Below, piece by piece: positions 66 through 37,148 of a stretch of 37,148 nucleotides of DNA. Position numbers and translations under genes: made by a program. Under the pieces are notes generated by a model that saw nothing but the letters and a program-made list of their open reading frames with translations, searched no databases and was not told the origin of the DNA. How positions within the stretch are numbered: the first letter of the stretch is position 1; every line of letters begins with the position of its first letter. The stretch covers positions 1-37,148 of the forward strand of contig CAITND010000089.1 in assembly GCA_903893625.1 (NCBI GenBank). Direction: 5' to 3'. This DNA comes from an uncultured Oscillatoriales cyanobacterium (GTDB lineage Bacteria > Cyanobacteriota > Cyanobacteriia > Cyanobacteriales > Microcoleaceae).

Positions 66-183
66 ACCTGGCACCGAGCTATTTTCCCAGGCGGCTACCC
101 GCCAAGTATCTTCGCCGTATCAGCGTTTCACAGCCGAGTCCGAGATGGATCGGAGTGGTTCCACTGAGCCATAGGCACCAGGA
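66..183 (-). rRNA. rrf: 5S ribosomal RNA (copy 1, solitary)
   Basis: A 118-nt sequence with the usual cyanobacterial 5S layout: a 5' TCCTGG pairing with a 3' CCAGGT to close helix I, and the conserved GGAACCACTC and GGGTAGCCG blocks. It matches the copy at 8381-8498 with a single difference (C at 140 on the plus strand, which is G in the gene, where the other copy has A). There is no 23S gene upstream. The gene has its own promoter at 261-289 and its own terminator, so it is transcribed as a single-gene unit. Confidence 0.95.
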
Positions 184-2967: not shown

Positions 2968-3408
2968 AAACTATAGCAATCCTACGCTAAAAAATGATTC
3001 AACCTTTGGCTCGAAGATCACCCCACTGCTTTAGAGTTTTTACCTAGACAAGCAATTCCTGTCCAGAACCTCATAACCCTAGTTTTCAAGGTGTGCTGTC
3101 TTCCGACGACTGGGTTTTGATTAAAGACAGGTTGATTACCCTAAACTGTCTGATCCAGATGCTAACACAGAAATAAAAAGTTGCCCTTCTAGGGCAAGAC
3201 TTTGTAAAGTTATGTAAATAATATCGGAATAACGAAATTTTAAGTTTAAATTAGAATTAATTTGACTTTGAGGGTTTTAAACTATGAATTAGACTGTAAA
3301 AAATCTTTTTAAGTTTTTTAGCTATTCCTTTAACTTTAGGATTAATTATGTTAACTAAGAAATGAAAAGATTCAGGCACAGAATATAAATCCATCAGGAA
3401 AGTTTATA
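2968..3408. other. Gene-free stretch with inverted repeats
   Basis: No convincing ORF is seen. There is a perfect 7-bp hairpin TTGCCCT-TCT-AGGGCAA at 3181-3197, which on the minus strand is followed by CTTTTTATTT and would work as a terminator there. CCTGTC at 3058-3063 can pair with GACAGG at 3126-3131, and the same GACAG can instead pair with CTGTCT at 3146-3151, giving two mutually exclusive folds. The last 25 nt may hold the guide portion of the IscB omega-RNA. No known riboswitch or RNA family is recognised. Confidence 0.4.
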
Positions 3409-3660
3409 GTCAACCACCCACCACTATATCGGTACTCCGATTAGTGGGGGCTTGAAATACAGCCTGAGTTGACCAGACTAAGTACCTTGGGTACTACGTT
3501 AGAAGCAAGCGTTAAAGTTCTTACCTACGGATGCGTAGCTAGTCTGTAGCTCTAAAACCCAAAAGTTAAACAGGTGATTAGGGTTAAGCCAGTGCTTTTG
3601 GGATGATACCGACTTCTAACATTGTCGAAGCTAACTTCACCCTAGAAATAGGAGAGGCAG
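3409..3660 (+). ncRNA. Candidate omega-RNA scaffold of IscB
   Basis: Dense nested base pairing directly upstream of iscB, as known for IscB guide RNAs. An outer helix GTCAAC 3409-3414 / GTTGAC 3468-3473 encloses a long hairpin (CCACTA plus ATCGG, 3421-3432, with CCGAT plus TAGTGG, 3437-3447) and a GGCT/AGCC hairpin (3449-3464). Then CAGACTA 3474-3480 pairs with TAGTCTG 3540-3546 and encloses AGTACC/GGTACT (3481-3495) and CTACG/CGTAG (3525-3538). CCCAAAAG 3558-3565 pairs with CTTTTGGG 3595-3602. AACCC 3556-3560 could also pair with GGGTT 3581-3585 as a pseudoknot. The 3' end near the iscB ribosome-binding site is inferred from known omega-RNAs; the guide would lie just 5' of 3409. Confidence 0.78.
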
Positions 3661-3662
3661 AA

Positions 3663-4937
3663 ATGTCAAATTACACATTAGTAATTGATGCCAACAATCA
3701 ACCATTAAGTCCCTGTCACCCCTCGGTAGCCAGAAAACTTTTAGCAAGCAAAAAAGCTGCGGTTTATAGGAGGTATCCCTTCACGATCATCTTAAATAAA
3801 ACAGTTGAAAATCCTCAGATTGAACCCATAGAACTGAAGTTAGATCCCGGTTCTAAAACCACAGGAGTAGCGTTAGTTCAGGGCAATAAAGTCCTCTGGG
3901 GTGCAGAATTAACTCATAGAGGACAGGCAATTAAAATGTCTTTAGAGTCCCGCCGTTCATTCCGCCGTTCTCGGAGAAATCGCCATACTCGCTATCGTCA
4001 GGCTCGATTTCTAAATCGCACACGCCAATCGAGTTTGTTGGCACCTTCCTTGCAACATCGGGTAGAAACAACCCTAACTTGGGTGAATAAATTGCTCCGA
4101 CTCGCTCCCATTAGTTCAATTGTTCAAGAGTTAGTAAGGTTTGACTTACAACAACTTGAGAATCCTGAAATCTCAGGCGTTGAATATCACGAAGGGGAAT
4201 TAGCAGAGTATGAAGTTCGGGAATATTTACTGAATAAATGGGATAGAAAATGTGCTTATTGTGGTATTGAAAATGTACCTTTACAAATAGATCATATTCA
4301 TTCCAAAGCCAAAGGAGGTTCTAATCGAATCAGCAATTTATGTTTAGCTTGTGAGCAGTGTAACATCAAGAAAGGAACTCAAAGTATTGAGCAATTCTTA
4401 GCGAAGAAATCGGACATTTTAAAACGCATTTTTTCTCAAGCCAAACGCCCACTTAAAGATGCGGCAACCGTCAATTCAACTCGCTGGGAATTGTTTAACC
4501 GACTTCAGGAAACTGGCTTACCTGTTGCTACTGGCAGTGGCGGTTTAACTAAGTTCAACCGCACTCGATTAAATCTGCCTAAAGCTCACTGGCTTGATGC
4601 GGCTTGTGTTGGTCTGGTTGAATCTCTGAAAGTTCTAACCAGCAAACCGTTATTAATTAAAGCTACTGGACATGGAACTCGCCAAATGTGTCGCCCTGAC
4701 AAGTTTGGATTCCCATCTCGTTATGTTCCCAGACTTAAATTTGTCAACGGTTTTCAGACGGGTGACATCGTGAAAGCGATAGTTACCTCTGGAAAAAAGA
4801 TTGGCATATATGTTGGTCGCGTCACAGTTAGATCAAGTGGTTCATTTAATATTTACACATCAGAATTAGTGTCGGGGATTAGTTACAAATATTGTTCAGT
4901 TATTCACAGAAAGGATGGTTATTCTTATGCAACATAA
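3663..4937 (+). CDS. iscB: IscB RNA-guided endonuclease (RuvC-HNH)
   Basis: 424 aa from ATG 3663, which has AGGAGAG at about 3649-3655; the in-frame ATG at 3603 falls at the end of the candidate omega-RNA and is unlikely. Domain order is that of IscB. A PLMP domain comes first (1-56, with QPLSPC). RuvC-I is LDPGSKTTGVA with D61. An arginine-rich bridge helix spans 97-120. RuvC-II is QELVRFD with E156. The HNH domain (194-240) has the zinc pairs C197/C200 and C230/C233 and the IDH motif with H211. RuvC-III is HWLDAA with H309 and D312. A C-terminal target-adjacent-motif-recognition region follows (335-400, GHGTRQMC...). All catalytic residues are present, so the enzyme looks active. IscB is the ancestor-like relative of Cas9 and cuts DNA matched by an omega-RNA guide. 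It converges on valS. No tnpA or CRISPR array is nearby. Confidence 0.95.
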   Translation: MSNYTLVIDANNQPLSPCHPSVARKLLASKKAAVYRRYPFTIILNKTVENPQIEPIELKLDPGSKTTGVALVQGNKVLWGAELTHRGQAIKMSLESRRSFRRSRRNRHTRYRQARFLNRTRQSSLLAPSLQHRVETTLTWVNKLLRLAPISSIVQELVRFDLQQLENPEISGVEYHEGELAEYEVREYLLNKWDRKCAYCGIENVPLQIDHIHSKAKGGSNRISNLCLACEQCNIKKGTQSIEQFLAKKSDILKRIFSQAKRPLKDAATVNSTRWELFNRLQETGLPVATGSGGLTKFNRTRLNLPKAHWLDAACVGLVESLKVLTSKPLLIKATGHGTRQMCRPDKFGFPSRYVPRLKFVNGFQTGDIVKAIVTSGKKIGIYVGRVTVRSSGSFNIYTSELVSGISYKYCSVIHRKDGYSYAT

Positions 4938-4938
4938 A

Positions 4939-4974
4939 CCCTACCCCCCGTTAGAAATAATTTCGGGGGTTAGG
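4939..4974. other. Hairpin at the iscB 3' end (right-end hairpin or bidirectional terminator)
   Basis: The arm at 4940-4950 (CCTACCCCCCG) pairs with 4964-4974 (CGGGGGTTAGG) with one mismatch and a 13-nt AT-rich loop. It starts two bases after the iscB stop and lies between the convergent iscB and valS genes. There is no good T run on either side, which favours the subterminal hairpin of an IS200/IS605-like right end over a classical terminator. Confidence 0.55.
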
Positions 4975-5005
4975 TCTTAGAATTTAGAAGACAGATGATC
5001 TAAAT

Positions 5006-8380: not shown

Positions 8381-8498
8381 TCCTGGTGCCTATGGCTCAG
8401 TGGAACCACTCCGATCCATCTCGAACTCGGCTGTGAAACGCTGATACGGCGAAGATACTTGGCGGGTAGCCGCCTGGGAAAATAGCTCGGTGCCAGGT
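8381..8498 (+). rRNA. rrf: 5S ribosomal RNA (copy 2, solitary)
   Basis: 118 nt, identical to the copy at 66-183 except for one base (A at 8424). The closing helix TCCTGG/CCAGGT, the GGAACCACTCCGATCC loop and the GGGTAGCCGCC arm are present. It is not linked to 16S or 23S genes in this window and has its own promoter and a strong terminator. It is oriented opposite to copy 1, so the two form an inverted repeat around an 8.2-kb segment that includes valS and iscB. Confidence 0.96.
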
Positions 8499-36063: not shown

Positions 36064-37148
36064 GTGCGAGACGTTCCTGTCAAAGTTTAGGAATAAACCC
36101 CGAAACGTAAGCAGGGAGATAGGCTCAGACAATTGTTACTGGGTATCAACCCAATAATAAATTCAATCAAGCCCGTTTTAACTTTGAAAATGTAGCCCTA
36201 AAGGAGGGTTAATCTCGGAGTCAATGGTGCGGCTTCCTGAACGGTAGCCCATTCCAAAGAGATTCGGCAATTCCCACAGTGTCAGACTGATTATCAAAAC
36301 ACTGAAGCTGGGAGTAACGGGAAAACGGATTTAAGTCAAAATCTAAGTAGTTCTCTAGCCAATTGCCCAAGAATAACGAAAGTGAACATCCGGCTTGAAC
36401 CGTCGTCATGATTAAGTAGCGAAATTGACTTGACCACGCTGCGTTCAAAAGAACAAGGGGAAAAGGTAGAGGATTTTACTGCTCTCTATAAGGTAAGGTT
36501 ATGTGTTTAACACTCACTAAGACTCCCAAAAGTACCCCGGCGGATAGGATGATTCTAAAGGCAATAAACCCATTTTCAAGGAACGTTAAAACCCCTCATA
36601 TACTCCTACAGTGGTCGAATACTGTTAGGTAGCCACAAATCTAAGGCGGATGTTATGAGGGCGAGAGATGGAGTCAGAAGCCAAAGCCTAGATGTAATGT
36701 CTAGGATACGCTGATAGATTCCGGTTTAGTTGTTAGGTAAGGTTTCAATTAGCAGTTAAAACGGTGAAAACGAGTATAACCAAGACTACGACTGCATGGA
36801 ATTCTATCAATTGGGCGAAAGTTCAAAGGGTAGTATTTAAGCTGCAAAAGAGAATTTACCAGGCATCCTTATCGGGACAAAATGCGAAAGCTCGGAAGCT
36901 CCAAAAACTTCTAGTCAAGTCATATTACGCCAAACTCTTATCAATAAGAAGGGTTACTCAAGATAATCAAGGCAAGAAAACAGCCGGGGTAGATGGGGTT
37001 AAATCCATCACACCCAAACAACGACTAGAACTTACCGAAAACTTGAGTATATACCAAAAGGCGAAACCACTTCGGAGGAAATGGATACCCAAACCCAACG
37101 GAGAAAAACGTCCTTTAGGAATCCCTACTATTCACGACAGAGTGAGGC
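36064..37148 (+). mobile_element. Group II intron, 5' part (runs off the window)
   Basis: It begins with GTGCGAG, the conserved group II 5' splice-site sequence. About 700 nt of structured domain I-III RNA follow, then the open reading frame of an intron-encoded reverse transcriptase in the domain IV position. The six bases before the junction (CAGTAA) can pair with TTACTG at 36476-36481, which lies in an AGAG/CTCT stem-loop as expected for EBS1; another TTACTG is at 36136-36141. The 3' half is not in the window. Confidence 0.85.
36764..37148 (+). CDS. ltrA: Group II intron-encoded reverse transcriptase/maturase (N-terminal part)
   Basis: 128 codons from GTG 36764, incomplete at the window end; no in-frame ATG precedes and a TAG lies in frame at 36734. 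The N terminus TAWNSINWAKVQRVVFKLQK is typical of intron RTs. RT0/RT1 motifs are seen as KTAGVDGV and then KWIPKPNGEKRPLGIP and IHDR. The protein reverse-transcribes the intron RNA and aids its splicing. Whether the remainder (RT3-7, domain X, endonuclease domain) is intact cannot be judged. The GTG start is inferred from the conserved N-terminal sequence. Confidence 0.9.
   Translation, partial: MKTSITKTTTAWNSINWAKVQRVVFKLQKRIYQASLSGQNAKARKLQKLLVKSYYAKLLSIRRVTQDNQGKKTAGVDGVKSITPKQRLELTENLSIYQKAKPLRRKWIPKPNGEKRPLGIPTIHDRVR

Follow-up and report, generated by a model that had tools for sequence, protein, structure and literature searches.

The window, meaning here the whole stretch of 37,148 nucleotides that was analysed, produced three matches above threshold in a cmscan search over its full length, namely one HEARO RNA (RF02033) and two 5S rRNAs. 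The HEARO match was found at 3409-3640 on the forward strand, as were all features of the element described below, and covered the full model with 136 bits (cut-off 83, E 2.4e-28). An open reading frame of 424 aa encoding IscB was identified at 3663-4937, and the gap of about 20 nt between the end of the RNA scaffold and the iscB start codon contained a purine-rich GGAGAGG. The initial annotation had suggested a candidate omega-RNA upstream of iscB at 3385-3660, to be checked with a covariance model and by covariation among homologues. Both checks came out clearly in its favour and the stretch is a genuine omega-RNA of an IscB mobile element of a known family, with the correction that the scaffold defined by Rfam is shorter (3409-3640) and the guide lies upstream of 3409. 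Promoter-like sites upstream of the omega-RNA were not in excess (3 against 4.7 expected from shuffling).

The frame at 3663-4937 matched the NCBIfam equivalog guided_IscB with 459 bits (cut-off 175), the Pfam families RRXRR and HNH and solved IscB structures, in agreement with the gene named in the initial annotation. The catalytic residues of OgeuIscB given in the excerpts of PMC9640706 are D61, E193, H340 and D343 for RuvC and H247 for HNH, and these aligned with D61, E156, H309 and D312 (RuvC) and H211 (HNH) of the window protein. The two proteins had a low overall similarity (E 2.9e-23), and the window IscB was shorter, with 424 aa compared to 496 in the solved chain. The iscB frame was uninterrupted, and judged by its sequence the nuclease gene looks intact.

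The helices that had been drawn by eye exist in the sequence and the stretch was more stable than chance, as 3409-3640 folded alone at -68.7 kcal/mol, whereas shuffled versions averaged -56.7 (z -2.9, with 2 of 200 shuffles equally stable). For covariation, the Rfam structure was mapped onto the window and checked against an alignment comprising 41 HEARO RNAs of the own genome and 12 relatives. These were drawn from 132 copies (32 from the own genome and 100 picked from 14 other genomes, which is not a random sample); 19 copies without a recognisable 3' end were dropped, 45 of the remaining 113 were kept at <90% identity, and 41 of the 45 aligned rows were used after omission of short rows and of copy L007. 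Over the 41 sequences, the Rfam fold with its pseudoknot showed 79.2% of cells paired compared to 67.8% after shuffling, 350 cells with double changes compared to 117, and a covariation score of 0.345 compared to 0.142. On each of five measures, none of 500 shuffles was as high. Pairing fell to 28-41% when the partners were slid by 1 to 3 columns. In addition, RNAalifold recovered the same core unprompted, with double changes in 28 of 42 pairs.

The scaffold begins with a guide-adaptor stem (3409-3414/3468-3473) which encloses a variable arm, the two together occupying 3409-3473. This stem had been proposed as an enclosing helix and held up well, since each of its six pairs was kept in at least 40 of the 41 sequences, and covariation was found for it. 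The 11-bp hairpin with one bulge was present in the window copy's fold (3421-3426/3442-3447 and 3428-3432/3437-3441) but its arm varies between copies, and helices 2 to 4 of the variable arm (3418-3462) were weak with 24 to 55% of cells paired. The core helix 3476-3480/3622-3626 was paired in 75.1% of cells with double changes in three of five pairs, and column 3479/3623 was mostly unpaired. The core stem 3498-3508/3610-3620 was found by covariation and by RNAalifold, with a strong outer part and weak innermost pairs. The hairpin 3525-3532/3542-3549, whose loop enters the pseudoknot, had 92.1% of cells paired and double changes in six of eight pairs. The 8-bp helix noted as ending at 3602 lies inside the hairpin 3558-3566/3594-3602 (89.8% of cells paired, double changes in seven of nine pairs), which is extended by 3570-3576/3587-3593; covariation was found for both (helices 11 and 12). 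The second enclosing helix of the initial annotation, 3474-3480/3540-3546, was rejected as a conserved helix because its pairing over the 41 sequences equalled that of shuffled letters (63.1% compared to 63.3%, 393 of 500 shuffles as high). It pairs perfectly in the window copy and is present in the minimum-energy fold of that copy, and it is incompatible with 3476-3480/3622-3626, with 3525-3532/3542-3549 and with the pseudoknot.

A pseudoknot had been suggested as a possibility and no location had been named for it. One does exist, a nexus-type pseudoknot at 3537-3540/3629-3632, with 98.1% of cells paired. Two of its four pairs had double changes (one occurs as A-U, C-G and U-A, the other as U-A and C-G) and the remaining two were invariant. 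It links a hairpin loop to the bases immediately 3' of the core stem, which is the arrangement described for the nexus pseudoknot of OgeuIscB in the excerpts of PMC9640706.

Among the 132 copies, the scaffold started with GTCA in 128, GTAA in two and ATCA in one, and was cut by a contig end in one. The 16 bases directly upstream were distinct in 129 of 131 copies and seven pairs of copies shared at least 12 of the 16, so that a variable guide lies directly 5' of a fixed scaffold start in these copies. Because of this fixed start and the distinct upstream 16-mers, the guide of the window copy ends at 3408, at the border that had been anticipated by eye. Its last 16 bases are 3393-3408, and since about 17 guide bases are ordered in the OgeuIscB structure it may begin one or more bases earlier. 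An RNA with the guide 3393-3408 is presumably made and used. Two sets of shared sites were also seen. Copies L018 (G000, the own genome) and L095 (G008) were alike at 15 of 16 upstream bases and their HEARO RNAs were only 61% alike, which suggests that one site was used by two different elements. Copies L012 (G000) and L124 (G002) occupied the same site in two species, with elements 97-98% identical and flanks 80-88% identical, as if the element had moved between species or had been inserted twice.

Right ends were placed where the similarity between copies stops. After 24 of the 132 copies were dropped (16 without a right end and 8 found ambiguous by hand), 108 right ends were left, 20 of them set by hand. 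In sister copies the right end was followed by ATGA or GTGA, a motif that is partly built in because the right-end script required [AG]TG[AG] at the similarity border. Weinberg and colleagues reportedly gave ATGA and GTGA as the integration neighbours. In the window copy the right end was misplaced by the script and was set by hand at 4994 from the sequence GAAGACAG followed by ATGA that is common to copies L020 and L120. The same 12 bases were thus found at 4987-4998, with GAAGACAG running to 4994 and the target motif ATGA at 4995-4998, and the element probably spans 3409-4994 directly before this motif. A right-end hairpin with a GC-rich stem at about 4940-4944/4970-4974 (4940-4974) was predicted for single-strand DNA (z -1.9), with weak support because 6 of 200 shuffles fold as well. 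The target motif of OgeuIscB is NNRR according to the excerpts of PMC9640706; ATGA is compatible with it, while GTCA, which comes after the guide in the occupied site, is not.

A search of 40 genomes, the own genome included, showed HEARO matches in 29 and matches above threshold in 26. The own genome had 32 matches, 21 of them above threshold, but unexpectedly three full-length IscB frames, which were those of the window, of C244 (78% identity) and of C69 (68%). Another IscB frame (G000:C187:38676-39425, copy L020) had 290 aa and an in-frame loss of the middle including the HNH domain, because only query residues 1-91 and 263-424 are present; the right end of L020 adjoins the start of a FabH-like gene. 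The window copy is one of the few IscB-bearing members in a large and mostly ORF-less family. Genomes with many ORF-less omega-RNAs exist, such as Ktedonobacter, which likewise has many HEAROs for few IscB genes; in the cyanobacteria examined here many ATGA-type copies adjoin host start codons, and the comparison with Ktedonobacter covers copy numbers alone. In G008 at least 41 HEARO matches were counted (44 of 69 candidates scored), and the IscB matches listed there were all partial, one lying within a 1028-aa open frame. Four matches to Y1 transposase were found in the own genome, none of them on the contig of the window, and therefore no Y1 gene shares the element as it would in an autonomous IS200/IS605-like transposon. 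Transposase neighbours are described as rare for HEARO nucleases in the excerpts of PMC9755519.

The 10 genomes of the genus were searched for the flanks of six sister copies, joined end to end. At pfkA and at leuB, 9 of 9 fetched loci ran through the junction with no element in between, some of them with small indels immediately upstream, and at acpP 4 of 4 fetched loci were likewise uninterrupted. The acpP locus of G008 had 16 bases and ATGA identical to guide and motif, and 14 of 16 bases agreed with the guide at pfkA and leuB in G008. By coordinates, the acpP junction was also matched in G002 and G003, and G004 matched the left flank only. Insertion was therefore seamless at the sites examined, as the loci of relatives cross the pfkA, leuB and acpP junctions without the element. 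Extra sequence was seen between the acpP flanks at G006:C102:65538-65892 and G007:C163:142863-143218, where G000 carries its HEARO. Both fetched folD loci were uninterrupted but had ACGA in place of ATGA, and folD (L007) was for this reason rejected as a conserved start. For the response regulator (L214), the locus compared was the own genome's flank and was uninformative. For the window copy, no empty site was found in the 40 genomes; in genomes of the same genus, matches to the ribD-like gene and to the end of valS lay apart from each other, and no joined site was found in the 40 genomes. With up to two mismatches the window guide matched in 40 of 40 genomes, which was uninformative. No other place in the own genome matched guide and motif with fewer than two mismatches. 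What IscB does for its element could be studied with the empty alleles of relatives, which offer ready-made natural targets.

Overall, we place high confidence in the reading of this stretch as an IscB mobile element's omega-RNA, which would guide IscB to uninterrupted ATGA-type sites. This reading is built on the identity, fold and pseudoknot of the RNA, the identity and key residues of IscB, the variable guide beside a fixed scaffold, and the seamless insertion of sister copies before ATGA. From the sequence we infer transcription, complex formation, cleavage and mobility, and also the right border of the window copy. A rightward transcript would begin with the guide, that is the host flank ending at 3408, and continue through the HEARO scaffold 3409-3640 into the iscB message. 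IscB would bind the scaffold and, with the guide, cut double-stranded DNA matching the guide just before an ATGA-type motif, as in an uninterrupted site; the predicted target of the window guide is ATCAGGAAAGTTTATA followed by ATGA. The element would spare itself because GTCA rather than the motif comes after the guide in the occupied site. Cutting of empty sites would favour retention and spread of the element, and the element was presumably moved by a Y1 transposase supplied in trans.

Chance pairing in an AT-rich intergenic stretch was considered as the origin of the helices, and one named helix (3474-3480/3540-3546) did turn out to be unsupported. With an Rfam E value of 2.4e-28 and none of 500 shuffles reaching the observed covariation, this explanation is already refuted and its probability is negligible. 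It is also very improbable that the RNA is mainly a cis-regulatory leader for iscB translation rather than a guide RNA. The RNA does end some 20 nt upstream of the iscB start codon, and the purine-rich GGAGAGG lies in the interval, but most HEAROs of the own genome have no IscB frame behind them, and a variable guide beside a fixed scaffold would be unexpected for a leader. Autoregulation of iscB may nevertheless be a second role of the RNA.

A third alternative, which we regard as fairly unlikely, is that the window copy is a remnant in which the RNA and the gene look intact but mobility or activity is gone, and whose hand-set right end has lost the purine-rich run of its closest relatives. 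The right end has just its last bases (GAAGACAG and then ATGA) in common with sister copies, transposase is absent from the neighbourhood, and the genome has further IscB copies that are defective, as on C187. However, the 424-aa frame is uninterrupted with its catalytic residues aligned, the HEARO score is that of a full match and the pseudoknot is kept. The locus offers a well-supported pair of IscB and omega-RNA with a named guide, motif and pseudoknot, on which cleavage could now be tested.

Less expected, and of more consequence than the window element itself, is the wider occurrence of ATGA-type copies at host start codons. In a strict test, which asked for the first in-frame ATG after a stop within 150 nt and an ORF of at least 60 aa, 39 of 64 ATGA-type insertions adjoined the first ATG of an ORF, compared to 16 of 328 for ATGA sites across the window and 40 of 883 for those of flanking DNA. 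GTGA-type insertions did so in 5 of 43 cases compared to 28 of 635 in flanks. A looser test gave 46 of 64 for ATGA-type and 8 of 43 for GTGA-type copies, and the strict test without hand-set ends gave 30 of 48 and 4 of 39, respectively. The excess was distributed over several genomes, as ATGA-type copies were at gene starts in 12 of 19 cases for G000, 6 of 8 for G002, 4 of 6 for G017 and 3 of 3 for G004, with lower shares for G008 (5 of 13) and G001 (2 of 5). Copies L004, L009, L013, L014 and L051 in G000 are examples lying directly before a first ATG, and further examples are L119 (G002), L140 (G017) and L182 (G025). The genes adjoined include leuB, acpP, pfkA and cphA. Ten host proteins, picked for looking familiar, were scanned against NCBIfam; for LeuB, AcpP, PfkA, CphA, Gnd, FabH and UDP-sulfoquinovose synthase the matching stretch started at residue 1 to 6, whereas for PurK, peptide deformylase and methionine aminopeptidase it started at residue 15 to 23.

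Part of this seating can be put down to avoidance of gene damage, because 10 of 43 harmless ATGA sites of the window (those at which an insertion disrupts no gene) coincide with gene starts. Damage avoidance was rejected as the whole explanation, since the 39 of 64 insertions exceeded the harmless sites (Fisher p 1.5e-4), as did 36 of 60 when second members of shared sites were removed (p 2.7e-4); the statistic counts related copies as independent, so that the excess beyond damage avoidance is indicative only. A general choice of start codons by HEAROs was rejected as well for GTGA-type copies, of which 5 of 43 were at gene starts in the strict test and, in G018, 4 of 28 in the looser one. In G018 a GGAG-type sequence precedes GTGA too, yet most copies lie away from gene starts, which disfavours a simple ribosome-site rule. 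One right-end family carries a purine-rich sequence of the GGAGGAAG or GGGGGAAG type, and 13 of its 14 members adjoined an ORF of at least 50 aa or an open frame of at least 40 aa running off the stretch. The window copy itself is not at a gene start, as ATGATCTAA is a two-codon frame near the valS end.

We tentatively propose, while holding the idea to be somewhat more doubtful than sure, that in these cyanobacteria ATGA-type HEARO/IscB elements are seated at start codons, inserted between a host leader and its ATG(A). The motif would then be the start codon, the guide would be the ribosome-binding region of the gene, and the omega-RNA would form part of the host 5' leader, be expressed from the host promoter and could serve IscB produced at another locus. 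Directly upstream of the ATG, one right-end family has a Shine-Dalgarno-like sequence that would maintain translation of acpP and similar genes. A more hypothetical step is that leader-bound IscB feeds back on the host genes. If true, seating at the start codons of housekeeping genes and travel in their leaders would explain how dozens of ORF-less guide RNAs are tolerated and expressed within a single genome. Such seating was not found in the literature searched, which did not include Weinberg 2009, Altae-Tran 2021, Kapitonov 2016 and Meers 2023, and no claim is made that it is unpublished. The excerpts of PMC8400943 mention HEARO RNAs of Limnospira alongside introns and call for a study of where they lie with respect to host genes.

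The role of HEARO as the guide RNA of IscB is established according to the excerpts of PMC9755519 and PMC9640706. The window RNA resembles HEARO RF02033 in its full-length match, its fold and its position directly before an IscB gene, and its scaffold has no notable difference apart from a longer hairpin in the variable arm. The window system also resembles HEARO nucleases such as MG35-1, which are compact RuvC/HNH enzymes that have a HEARO RNA in their 5' region and rarely a transposase as neighbour (PMC9755519, excerpts). Activity has been demonstrated for such nucleases in the same excerpts, whereas that of the window system is predicted.

Other features were identified in the window. A non-coding repeat of 176 bp at 3031-3206 was 89-94% alike at three other places of the genome and 90% alike in G008, with a common sharp start TTAGAG. 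It was rejected as a known RNA, as an Rfam search of 2968-3420 gave one snoRNA match below the cut-off (E 0.92) and elsewhere in that stretch. The two 5S rRNA genes lie in opposite orientation at 66-182 (-) and 8382-8498 (+), and no further rRNA and no tRNA was reported in the window. Finally, the start of a reverse transcriptase (Pfam RVT_N) was identified at 36764-37147 (+), cut by the contig end, and its product is possibly a group II intron protein.
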